38,866 bases of DNA, taken from contig JAHDHZ010000023.1 of NCBI GenBank assembly GCA_020631045.1, forward strand, positions 1-38,866, given 5' to 3'. Positions within the stretch are counted from its first letter, which is position 1; each line of letters opens with the position of its first letter. Of this stretch, positions 3,032-7,178 are shown piece after piece. The notes under the pieces are model-generated. The model saw only the letters and a program-made list of their open reading frames with translations, ran no database searches and was not told where the DNA came from. The translations under genes were made by a program, and so were the position numbers. The stretch comes from Flavobacteriales bacterium (lineage in GTDB: Bacteria > Bacteroidota > Bacteroidia > Flavobacteriales_G > JALEGO01).

Positions 3032-3916
3032 ATGACCAATCATACTCTTGATCTTGAGCATTATACGCTAAACATCACCAGCTTTGATTCGTCTAACATA
3101 AAGGCGCAATGCCACGCACTTGTCTTAATACATGGAGCCATTGAAAATGCCAAAATCTTTTACTCTAAATCTCAAAAAGGATTGGCGCCTTTTTTAGCCT
3201 CAAAAGGGTTTCACGTATTTGTGCTAGACATGAGAGGCAAAGGCAAGAGCAAACCAAAAATATCTAAGCACAGCACTTTTGGCACACTTGATCAAGTACA
3301 GCACGATTTTACAGCTCTTTATAGCTTTGTAAAAACCCACACCAATCACAAACCTCAAGTTTGGCTTGCCCACTCATGGGGAGGCGTGTTGCTCTTACAT
3401 TTTTGGGCTAGGTTTCACAAAACAATGCCCATTGAGAAAATGGTGTTTTTTGGCTCTAAACGCAGAATTTCAGTCAAAAGCATAAAAAAATGGTTGATGA
3501 TCAACTTTTTCTGGAGATACTTGGGCACTTTACTTGCCAAAATTTATGGTTATTATCCATCCAAAACCTATAAACTTGGTTCAGAGAATGAATCAACTGA
3601 AAGCTTTCTAGAAATGGATAGAATGGTCTTAAAAAAGGCATGGGTAGATGTTGATGGATTTGATTATCATAAGTATTTCAAAGCCCATCCAATTGACATT
3701 CCTATTTTTTCAATGACTGGACAAAACGATGATGTACTTGGTCATGCCCATGATTGTAAAGCCCTGTTAAAAGAAGCTGGCGCAACAAAATCCCTATTTA
3801 AAGTGATCGGTAAACAAACGGGTTACAAGGTCAATTATGATCATATCAATTTATTGACACATCCAAAAGCAAAAGAAGAACACTTTTTAGAAGTAATTGA
3901 TTTTATTCAATCATAA
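3032..3916 (+). CDS. Alpha/beta-fold hydrolase
   Basis: A serine hydrolase of the alpha/beta fold, probably a cytoplasmic esterase or lipase-like enzyme. The oxyanion region LVLIHGAIENA and DMRGKGKS are typical of the fold. The nucleophile elbow reads AHSWGG, with serine about residue 115, so the first glycine of G-X-S-X-G is alanine. A late Asp (GQNDDVLG) and His (YDHINLL) complete a plausible triad. The ORF track starts at a TTG (3014), but ATG 3032 is preferred because TTG starts are uncommon here. The gene lies just after the TonB receptor and may be co-transcribed with it. Its 3' end overlaps the convergent phosphatase gene by 14 nt. The substrate is unknown. Confidence 0.8.
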   Translation: MTNHTLDLEHYTLNITSFDSSNIKAQCHALVLIHGAIENAKIFYSKSQKGLAPFLASKGFHVFVLDMRGKGKSKPKISKHSTFGTLDQVQHDFTALYSFVKTHTNHKPQVWLAHSWGGVLLLHFWARFHKTMPIEKMVFFGSKRRISVKSIKKWLMINFFWRYLGTLLAKIYGYYPSKTYKLGSENESTESFLEMDRMVLKKAWVDVDGFDYHKYFKAHPIDIPIFSMTGQNDDVLGHAHDCKALLKEAGATKSLFKVIGKQTGYKVNYDHINLLTHPKAKEEHFLEVIDFIQS

Positions 3917-5738
3917 GACCAGCAATAAGAATATCATCTACTTGTTCTAAATCGCCTTTCCAAGCTTGAAACTCACTCTCAAGCAGCTTTTTTTGAACAG
4001 ATGCGTCTTGCACTGATATCTTTTGCAAGAACTCTTTAAACTTACGGTATTTGTATTTTTTACCTTTCTCTCCTCCGAACTGATCAGGAAATCCATCCGA
4101 AAAAATATATACCTTATCTCCGCTTTGCAATTTTACGGTATGATTGGTGAATTTTTCTTCTTTATTGCCGTAATGAATGCCCACCGGAAATTTATTGGGT
4201 TTAATCTCATTGAGCGCTCCATCCCTAAAGTAATACAATGGGTTAAATGCTCCTGCATACTGCAATTCTTTTTTCTCAAAATCAATGGCACAGATCGCAG
4301 CATCCATACCATCTTTAATGGTTTGCTCTTCAAGACCGTGTTGAGAAAAGGTATTTCTCACCTCTGTATTCAAAGCATCTAATACTGCCGCTGGAGTGAG
4401 TTCATCAACCATCTTCACAGCTTTTGTCAATCCATTATACCCAATAATAGTCATGAAAGCCCCCGGAACACCATGCCCAGTGCAATCAATCGCTCCGTAA
4501 AAGACCTTAGATTTCTCTTTAAACACCCAATAAAAATCTCCACTCACAATGTCTTTGGGCTTAAAGTAAAAAAAGGCATTGGGCAAGACTTTGCTGACAT
4601 AACTATCGGTAGGCAAAATTGCATCTTGAATGCGTTTTGCATAGACAATACTATCTGTAGTGTGTTTCAAAAGCACTTCGATTTCTTCTTTTTGCTCTTC
4701 AATGGTTGCAGTTCTATCTTTTACTTTTTGCTCTAAGTCAGAAGTCAATTCAAATAAATCTTTACGCATCGTTAGAAGGGATTGACCCAATAAGTCTTGA
4801 TCACTTAAAGGGGTGAATTCTGCCTTAAAATTGCCTACCCCGACTTCAGTAGCGAAGTCTTTTGTTCTATTGAGACCTTTAGAAAGATTATCAAGAGCTT
4901 CAGTCATTTCGTTAAGCTCTTTAAAATTAGTCTCAACCTTATTTTTAGGCATAATTCCTTTACCTAAAAGCGTAAGTTGATTCTTTACTTTTTGTACTGG
5001 ATTTGTAATGGTTCTAATCGTAAAAACTGCAATTAAAATACCAAAAATCAAAAGTCCCCAACCAGCGTTTAAAACAAGTTTAAACTGGTTAAATGAACTT
5101 GAAATCTCATCTTGATTTTCAATTCTGTGTTTGTCATGAAGGTCAATTAACCGATCTAAATCGGTAGAAATTTCAGCCTTTTTGGGTGGAATCACATCAT
5201 CGACAATACTTCTAGGAGTTGTTCCGCCAGAACTAATTTCATCTGCTAAACCTTCAAAAGCATCAAAGCCTTCTAAAAGTAATTCAGTATTTTCAACTCT
5301 ATAAAACTCATAATCTTTGATGTCTTTTAACTGAGTCATAATAATTTCATACTGACTAAATAAATCTTCAATCTTAACAAAAATGTTGTCAATATCAGAA
5401 TACTCTTTTTTGTTCCATTGATTTGAATAATCAATTAAACTCGATTTAATATTTGGGTAGTCTTCGTTGATTATTTTTTGAAGCTCTTGTTTGCGTTCAT
5501 GTCGAACATCAACTTCATTTTCAACCCAGAAAATTGCTAACGGTAAAGATCTATCAACCGTTTCTCTCAGTTCGACAAGAGCATTGAGCGAAGGCAGCCT
5601 CAAATGATTTAGTTGCCAAATCTGAGCTTCGCTTTTATTGAGTGAGTTTAGTGTTCTTAAATTTAAGAATGCTAAGAAAGCAATGAGAATACCAAAGCCC
5701 AATCCAATGATGAGTCCTATTGAAAATTTACGTTTCAA
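3903..5738 (-). CDS. HAMP-domain SpoIIE-family (PP2C-type) serine phosphatase
   Basis: A membrane-bound signalling phosphatase. TM1 (about 7-29) and TM2 (about 224-243) flank an extracytoplasmic helical sensor region. They are followed by a HAMP linker (about 243-300), a coiled coil rich in E/K/Q (about 330-360) and a SpoIIE/RsbU-type catalytic domain to the C terminus. Metal-binding motifs visible are GDFYWVF, DCTGHGVPGAFMT, DGMDAAICAID and FSDGFPDQFGG. Such enzymes usually dephosphorylate anti-anti-sigma or similar partner proteins; no such partner is in the window. It is the last gene of a minus-strand set with a TPR protein (19 nt upstream) and a YfiR-like protein, suggesting periplasmic input feeding a phosphatase output. 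Confidence 0.9.
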   Translation of the reverse strand: MKRKFSIGLIIGLGFGILIAFLAFLNLRTLNSLNKSEAQIWQLNHLRLPSLNALVELRETVDRSLPLAIFWVENEVDVRHERKQELQKIINEDYPNIKSSLIDYSNQWNKKEYSDIDNIFVKIEDLFSQYEIIMTQLKDIKDYEFYRVENTELLLEGFDAFEGLADEISSGGTTPRSIVDDVIPPKKAEISTDLDRLIDLHDKHRIENQDEISSSFNQFKLVLNAGWGLLIFGILIAVFTIRTITNPVQKVKNQLTLLGKGIMPKNKVETNFKELNEMTEALDNLSKGLNRTKDFATEVGVGNFKAEFTPLSDQDLLGQSLLTMRKDLFELTSDLEQKVKDRTATIEEQKEEIEVLLKHTTDSIVYAKRIQDAILPTDSYVSKVLPNAFFYFKPKDIVSGDFYWVFKEKSKVFYGAIDCTGHGVPGAFMTIIGYNGLTKAVKMVDELTPAAVLDALNTEVRNTFSQHGLEEQTIKDGMDAAICAIDFEKKELQYAGAFNPLYYFRDGALNEIKPNKFPVGIHYGNKEEKFTNHTVKLQSGDKVYIFSDGFPDQFGGEKGKKYKYRKFKEFLQKISVQDASVQKKLLESEFQAWKGDLEQVDDILIAGLMIE

Positions 5739-5757
5739 AGTATTCTTTCTTCTGAGT

Positions 5758-6651
5758 TTATTTACCTTCTAACTGTTTGACTTTTTCATTAAATGACTCA
5801 GATTTTTCTATATCATTTAAACTGTAGTAAATCCCTGAAAGCCCTATGATCGGCTCTTTTCTATTGGGCTTTAACTCATATGCTCTTTGCATGTAAGGTA
5901 GTGCTTTCTGAAATAAAGCTACACTCTCGTCTTGAATTAATCCTACCGCGACAATATCTAAATCGTATTCAGCAACTTTAATCTTATCTACAGCCTCGTT
6001 GTAATAATGAATCCCTAAGTTATAGTTTGCACTCCAATTCATTGAATCTACTTTTAAAATAGATTGATAGGTTTCAATAACCTCTTCAAAAAATTTGTTG
6101 CCTTTGGTGTTTTCTCGGTGCTGCTCATAAAGCTCTGAGTAGACCTGTCCTAAAACAAGTTTGTATTGCAATTCAATTGAATTTAGTTGGCTTGAAAGCT
6201 CATATTTTTCACACAAGGTTTTGTATTGATTAAAAAGCGTTCTTGAAGTTTGATAATTTTCTTTATTTAAGGTTTTAGCAGCATCATTGTATATTGTTTT
6301 TGATAAATAATCTAAACTCTTCATAACAGAAGCTTTCAATTTCTCATCTTCATTTTTTTCTAAAAATCTTTGATAATAATCAATTGATTGGGTTCTGTAA
6401 TCTGAATTTACATCGCTTGAATTTAAATTGTAGAGCTCTTTTAAAATAATGCCTTTATAATACAAGGTTGAAGGGTTTTTAACCGTTTGCTCATGCTGCT
6501 CGGCTAAATTGATGTATTTCAAAGCCGATTCAAAGTCTTGCTGTTGGTATGCATTAATGGCATTTCTGATATTTTCATTTTGAGCAAAGAAATTATTGCT
6601 CAACAGAACAACTAAAAAACAAATTACAATATGATCAATATGAGCTTTCAT
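5758..6651 (-). CDS. TPR-repeat exported protein
   Basis: A signal peptide (about 1-23, ending NNFFAQ) is followed by helical repeats. INAYQQQDFESALKYINLAE near the N terminus and WSANYNLGIHYYNEA and EPIIGLSGIYYSLNDIEKSE near the C terminus are tetratricopeptide-like. It is probably a periplasmic protein-interaction module. Its start overlaps the stop of the YfiR-like gene by 4 nt (ATGA), so translation is likely coupled, and the SpoIIE phosphatase follows. The specific function is unknown; context suggests it connects the YfiR-like protein with the phosphatase sensor. Confidence 0.8.
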   Translation of the reverse strand: MKAHIDHIVICFLVVLLSNNFFAQNENIRNAINAYQQQDFESALKYINLAEQHEQTVKNPSTLYYKGIILKELYNLNSSDVNSDYRTQSIDYYQRFLEKNEDEKLKASVMKSLDYLSKTIYNDAAKTLNKENYQTSRTLFNQYKTLCEKYELSSQLNSIELQYKLVLGQVYSELYEQHRENTKGNKFFEEVIETYQSILKVDSMNWSANYNLGIHYYNEAVDKIKVAEYDLDIVAVGLIQDESVALFQKALPYMQRAYELKPNRKEPIIGLSGIYYSLNDIEKSESFNEKVKQLEGK

Positions 6652-7178
6652 ATAACTATGGCCAATTTCAAAAGATTTCCGCTTACTGTAAGATTGTGTG
6701 ATGAAATATTACCTTTATTTAATTCAAACTTTTGCTTTTGGTTCACTACTACAAAGTTGATTCCTGATCGAGTGCCAACACCGGGCTTTTCAGTAACCAA
6801 CAAGGTGCTTGAAGCCTTAATTTTACTTGAGCATTCAGAAACTTTAGAAGTCATGGCAGTTGGCAAAAGCAGCATATGGCATTTTTGAACTTCACTGGCA
6901 GAACTGTACTTAACTATTTTAATAGATTGATTAAATACTTTTTTGACTTTTGCCATGGCTTGTAGGTTTTGATATACTGGTGTTTCTCCTACTACTCCAA
7001 TAACAAAGTCACCTGTTTTGTAACTCGAAGGCCATTCTATATACTTGGCAAAATTATACATGTAAAGGGCTTTGATCTTAGCATTTACATCGTACTTAGG
7101 GGCGACTGAAGTATTCAACACCAAATAAATAATGATGTAAAAAAATCTCGCTACTCTATGTTGAAATACCCTTTGCAT
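6648..7178 (-). CDS. YfiR family protein (DUF4154-like)
   Basis: YfiR proteins are small periplasmic regulators; in Pseudomonas YfiR restrains the diguanylate cyclase YfiN. The family pattern is recognisable: an N-terminal hydrophobic export segment (about 8-26), then KIKALYMYNFAKYIEWPS, FVIGVVGETPVYQNL, CHMLLLP and LLVTEKPGVGTRSGINFVV. A TATATTTG box 14 nt upstream (7200-7193) supports the start. It is first in the operon ahead of the TPR and HAMP-SpoIIE genes. No diguanylate cyclase is nearby, so in this organism the output is more likely phosphatase signalling. The family call is fairly secure; the partner assignment is inference. Confidence 0.82.
   Translation of the reverse strand: MQRVFQHRVARFFYIIIYLVLNTSVAPKYDVNAKIKALYMYNFAKYIEWPSSYKTGDFVIGVVGETPVYQNLQAMAKVKKVFNQSIKIVKYSSASEVQKCHMLLLPTAMTSKVSECSSKIKASSTLLVTEKPGVGTRSGINFVVVNQKQKFELNKGNISSHNLTVSGNLLKLAIVI

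Follow-up and report, generated by a model that had tools for sequence, protein, structure and literature searches.

What does a YfiR-like periplasmic protein control when the HAMP-type membrane protein encoded beside it ends in a phosphatase instead of a cyclase? The question is raised by a contig of a Flavobacteriales bacterium (GCA_020631045.1, JAHDHZ010000023.1), which was analyzed over its whole length of 38,866 nt (hereafter the window). A sequence-only reading of this DNA had picked out three adjacent genes, for a YfiR-like protein, an exported TPR protein and a SpoIIE phosphatase, and had proposed that they join the sensory front end of a cyclase system to a different output. We combined domain searches and structure prediction with a survey of gene order across Bacteroidota to examine what this cassette senses and which proteins it may act on.

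The gene trio and its conservation

All three genes lie on the minus strand, downstream of a pseudouridine synthase gene. The first (6648..7178, ATG start) encodes a YfiR/HmsC-like (DUF4154) exported periplasmic protein of 176 aa. Its residues 34-173 match PF13689 (Pfam, 8e-32; 110.7 bits against a gathering cut-off of 24.9), and the NCBIfam YfiR-like TOL_0243 family matched at 7.6e-28, below that family's cut-off. Sequence search returned no solved-structure relatives of this protein, which is too distant from solved YfiR. The second gene (5758..6651, ATG start) encodes an exported protein of 297 aa with a hydrophobic N-terminus (residues 5-23). Its best TPR family match in Pfam is weak (1.2e-4, below cut-off), but the assignment made from the sequence agrees with its relatives, which match TPR families at up to 2.8e-17, and with a confident TPR superhelix model (pLDDT 90.6) that has consensus-TPR proteins among its PDB matches. 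The third gene (3903..5738) encodes a two-TM membrane phosphatase of 611 aa (PF07228, 1.6e-16) with the layout TM1, helical sensor, TM2, HAMP, coiled coil and SpoIIE/PP2C domain; its TTG start is supported by an alignment in which homologues begin at the same residue. The YfiR and TPR reading frames overlap by 4 nt (ATGA) and a gap of 19 nt separates the TPR and phosphatase genes, so that the tight spacing first noticed was exact to the base, and the YfiR-like and SpoIIE identities proposed with it hold in Pfam. Downstream, a convergent alpha/beta hydrolase gene overlaps the end of the phosphatase gene. Elsewhere in the window, a tmRNA gene (tag GETNYALAA) occupies positions 135-539 of the minus strand.

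Had the trio been rare elsewhere, the idea of a shared pathway would have lost its footing. Instead, the YfiR-TPR-phosphatase order recurs at 33 non-redundant loci across Flavobacteriales, Cytophagales and other Bacteroidota, a count that takes in contig-cut loci (four of them lack the phosphatase or have it truncated by a contig end) and places the order well beyond chance. Spacing remains tight throughout (YfiR-TPR -26 to +67 nt; TPR-phosphatase -4 to +55 nt), and a scan of named genomes found further cassettes in Cytophagales, Crocinitomicaceae and other Bacteroidota. Within the window's order, 21 of 42 genomes encode any YfiR, and the trio is present in every one of these 21 (including G003, in which it runs off the contig end past the TPR gene). 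A profile of the phosphatase sensor region (profile A4) matched the identical 21 genomes and none of the remaining 21; as related genomes are not independent samples, neither these co-occurrence counts nor the cassette counts are to be read as probabilities. Across the phylum, YfiR was detected in 42 of 393 genomes, and the strong sensor matches (n = 5) all fell in YfiR-positive genomes, among which G090 and G227 carry both genes in non-adjacent positions. Conservation and co-occurrence together rule out a chance adjacency of the three genes. Gene order by itself is never proof that genes work together, and three adjacent genes on one strand could merely be co-transcribed envelope genes with no pathway in common. 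We regard this explanation as very improbable, because the cassette is kept across several Bacteroidota orders while its outer neighbours change, and because YfiR and the sensor co-occur perfectly and YfiR is also found fused to SpoIIE domains.

Sensor and catalytic domains of the phosphatase

The two TM segments of the phosphatase (residues 7-25 and 221-239) flank an extracytoplasmic sensor domain (residues 26-220; 5079..5663, minus strand) that is predicted to be all-helical. The AlphaFold model, built from 25 sequences (mean pLDDT 79, pTM 0.44), contains helices at residues 7-73, 81-105, 110-136 and 175-259 and zero strands, with low confidence at residues 152-170. The Pfam scan found no CHASE8 match in the window phosphatase, and the HMM search and the all-helical model together rule this domain out. 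YfiN, the receptor partnered by YfiR in Pseudomonas, has a periplasmic PAS domain (PMC3375315). The helical model is unlike this PAS domain, which suggests that the sensor differs even though YfiR has been kept. Of the supposed common front end, YfiR is thus shared, whereas the receptor's sensor is not.

Behind TM2 lies a HAMP-like linker (about residues 240-292; 4863..5021, minus strand) that is sub-threshold in the window copy: the Pfam scan did not report PF00672, and residues 219-293 are covered only by partial histidine-kinase matches. Seven other cassette phosphatases were scanned, with a clear HAMP domain in five, a sub-threshold one in another and none listed for L071, so the HAMP domain read from the window sequence is clear in most relatives and faint in the window itself.

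The catalytic domain (residues 388-609; 3912..4577, minus strand) is SiaA-like. Its best PDB sequence match is the PP2C domain of SiaA (6k4e, E 1.1e-40), far ahead of the next best (7e-4), and Foldseek superimposed the two with a TM-score of 0.89 by target length. D401, D418, G421, D548, G549 and D601/D602 lie at the active-site positions given for SiaA in PMC7647112 and are invariant in 25 aligned cassette phosphatases. Against the NCBIfam SiaA equivalog model, however, the phosphatase scored 210.6 bits over residues 288-607 only, short of the 700-bit cut-off, and most of the nine other SpoIIE phosphatases of the window genome match the SiaA model too. The similarity is therefore general to the SpoIIE set of this genome, not specific to the cassette, and we make no claim of orthology with SiaA.

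YfiR beside other receptors and outputs

The TPR gene sits between those of YfiR and the phosphatase and is present in all 33 cassettes, which would fit an arrangement in which YfiR partners the TPR protein only, with the phosphatase never touching YfiR and taking its input from the TPR protein or some other signal. Loci without a TPR gene make this unlikely. At ten of them YfiR adjoins receptors with the same sensor, whose outputs are GAF/PAS (e.g. L143, L169) or MCP domains (L161, L167); YfiR thus appears to track the sensor rather than the output. In other proteins, YfiR is fused directly to the output with no TPR protein between them. The window genome itself encodes a further YfiR fused to SpoIIE as a single membrane protein of 624 aa (L020:10236-12110) that comprises a signal sequence, YfiR, a TM segment (residues 323-341) and a PP2C domain 44% identical to that of the cassette. 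Seven such fusions occur in the window's order, six of them outside the window genome (G001, G002, G003, G020, G023 and G024), and in other Bacteroidota families large histidine kinases carry a fused YfiR at their N-terminus (L128-L133). A YfiR that contacts the receptor directly is the reading that we carry forward.

Elsewhere in the phylum, the neighbours of YfiR are mostly HAMP histidine kinases. Among 15 separate kinases adjoining Bacteroidota YfiR that were scanned with Pfam, 13 match CHASE8 with an E of at most 0.001, and three of those 13 matches fall short of the curated cut-off. A quick YfiR tree, in which many forks are weak, groups the cassette YfiRs with those of helical-sensor partners and places most YfiRs of CHASE8 kinases elsewhere; the three exceptions branch close to the root of the half that holds the cassette YfiRs.

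Another YfiR gene lies between genes for an OmpA/PD40 protein and a penicillin-binding protein (PBP; transglycosylase/transpeptidase) at L019 (G000, contig C57, 216-4489), L067 and L075. This arrangement is found in three genomes of the family, with PBPs 66-72% identical, and the YfiR at these loci may contribute to cell-wall synthesis.

A SiaB/SiaC link in genomes without a cyclase

The window genome (98.6% complete) contains no GGDEF domain, and GGDEF is present in only one of the 21 cassette genomes. The search itself works, as 8 of 14 control genomes gave matches, and a lost or distant cyclase partner is thereby ruled out. The suspicion that this cassette operates without a cyclase, with SpoIIE/PP2C in its place, accordingly extends to the whole genome.

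The STAS or anti-sigma partners sought have counterparts in this genome: the partner search covered SiaB and SiaC and found both. Besides ten SpoIIE proteins, the window genome encodes five SiaB-like kinases and five SiaC phosphoproteins, all SiaB/SiaC genes lying away from the cassette. In four Cytophagales (L145, L148, L151, L153), by comparison, the cassette continues directly into genes for SiaB, SiaC and a coiled-coil/two-TM protein, forming a six-gene operon. SiaC scored above cut-off in 20 of the 21 cassette genomes vs 11 of the 21 others; the sole cassette genome lacking it (G022) is only 78% complete. In a sample of 15 SiaC loci, which covers 15 genomes (G041 plus 14 with the cassette), SiaB is always adjacent, and the position of the T68 phosphosite of SiaC (PMC7647112) holds Thr or Ser in 8/8 aligned SiaC proteins.

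PF07228 phosphatases often serve STAS-type partners. The cassette phosphatase might likewise control a sigma factor through an RsbV/SpoIIAA-type STAS protein, or might have yet another phosphoprotein, not SiaC, as its substrate, the more so as SiaB and SiaC are not encoded in cis in a genome that holds ten SpoIIE proteins. We give such substrates only a small chance, given how far SiaA leads the PDB matches, the SiaB-SiaC genes that follow the cassette in four Cytophagales and the presence of SiaC in nearly all cassette genomes. SiaC probably is the substrate, a view that rests on the SiaA-like catalytic domain as well as on these gene linkages, and the nine other SpoIIE phosphatases of the window genome compete for the role of dephosphorylating it.

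The protein encoded after SiaC in the Cytophagales operons (168-187 aa; L145:11577-12083, L148:7197-7706, L151:11636-12199, L153:11601-12113) is a candidate SiaC target. It shows no relation to SiaD, and a PDB search gave no convincing match. As an effector common to all cassettes it is rejected, as a profile search of the window genome returned zero matches. The C-terminal part of the Cytophagales protein recurs in a G033 protein (L177) for which two PAS-like regions are predicted. At three loci in three genomes of the family (L027:5003-7592, L179, L180), a tandem SiaB-SiaC-SiaB-SiaC array is followed by genes for an FtsE-like ATP-binding protein and a glycosyltransferase-like protein, which might hint at a SiaC target. 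The window genome further encodes a SpoIIE protein with a propeller-like N-terminus, with a SiaB-like kinase gene directly after it (L024:5240-8993).

Proposed mechanism

We hypothesize, with moderate confidence, that the trio is an envelope-sensing operon in which periplasmic YfiR gates the SiaA-like membrane phosphatase and so sets the phosphorylation of SiaC. That YfiR gates the phosphatase is quite probable, given the operon conservation at 33 loci, the co-occurrence in 21 of 42 genomes and the YfiR-SpoIIE fusions. YfiR would bind the helical sensor domain of a dimeric phosphatase. The exported TPR protein is a tentative input adaptor that may pass a signal from the cell envelope on to YfiR; in Pseudomonas YfiB binds or sequesters YfiR, and the TPR protein might do likewise. 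To judge by the domain architecture and by YfiN, the change would travel from TM2 through the HAMP domain and coiled coil to the PP2C domain, and YfiR might either repress or activate the phosphatase. The similarity to SiaA and the operon linkage in relatives suggest that the phosphatase would then strip from SiaC the Thr/Ser phosphate put on by a SiaB-like kinase. Dephosphorylated SiaC would act on some target other than a diguanylate cyclase, as the genome has none.

A wider generalization, which we offer as possible rather than probable, has two parts. YfiR could serve generally as a periplasmic co-receptor, gating dimeric HAMP receptors of any sensor fold (PAS/CHASE8, helical bundle) and any output (cyclase, kinase, phosphatase, chemotaxis domain), and in cyclase-free Bacteroidota it could control a SiaB/SiaC phospho-switch with a target unconnected to c-di-GMP. 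If so, YfiR and SiaABC, pathways known separately from c-di-GMP biofilm control, would be linked in bacteria that have no c-di-GMP synthesis genes, and both would be able to run without c-di-GMP. This raises the question of what SiaC does where there is no cyclase; the fused YfiR-SpoIIE proteins and the six genes of the Cytophagales operon would serve as compact test constructs.

Comparison with known systems

The cassette resembles YfiBNR of Pseudomonas aeruginosa (PMC3375315, PMC4655355) in that a YfiR/DUF4154 gene lies beside that of a two-TM HAMP inner-membrane receptor, with a possible additional envelope input protein. It differs in the receptor's sensor (an all-helical bundle vs PAS/CHASE8 in YfiN) and in its output (PP2C phosphatase vs GGDEF, in a genome with no GGDEF protein). 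A TPR protein with no YfiBNR counterpart replaces the OmpA-like YfiB, although an OmpA-YfiR pair exists outside the cassette, on contig C57. With SiaABCD of the same species (PMC7647112, PMC12834913), the cassette shares a two-TM HAMP-PP2C phosphatase whose catalytic domain is the closest in the PDB, SiaB and SiaC (encoded in the window genome, and next to the cassette in relatives) and the phosphosite position. Unlike that system, the window genome has neither SiaD nor any GGDEF protein, its SiaB and SiaC are not in cis, and YfiR and TPR genes precede the cassette phosphatase.

The modularity of YfiNR was described by Malone et al. 2012 (PMC3375315): the YfiR-YfiN[PAS] core is conserved, and kinases, Hpt, GGDEF-EAL or MCP domains can serve as its output. 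The main text of that paper makes no mention of a SpoIIE or PP2C output, and our literature search, which reached few subscription journals, found neither PP2C nor SiaA/SiaBC connected with YfiR in any paper. Like those variant systems, the cassette pairs YfiR with an exchangeable cytoplasmic output; unlike them, its PP2C output falls outside their list and its sensor lacks the YfiN[PAS] core. Exchangeable YfiR outputs have therefore already been proposed; what the cassette adds to the modular YfiR systems is the phosphatase output together with the SiaBC link.
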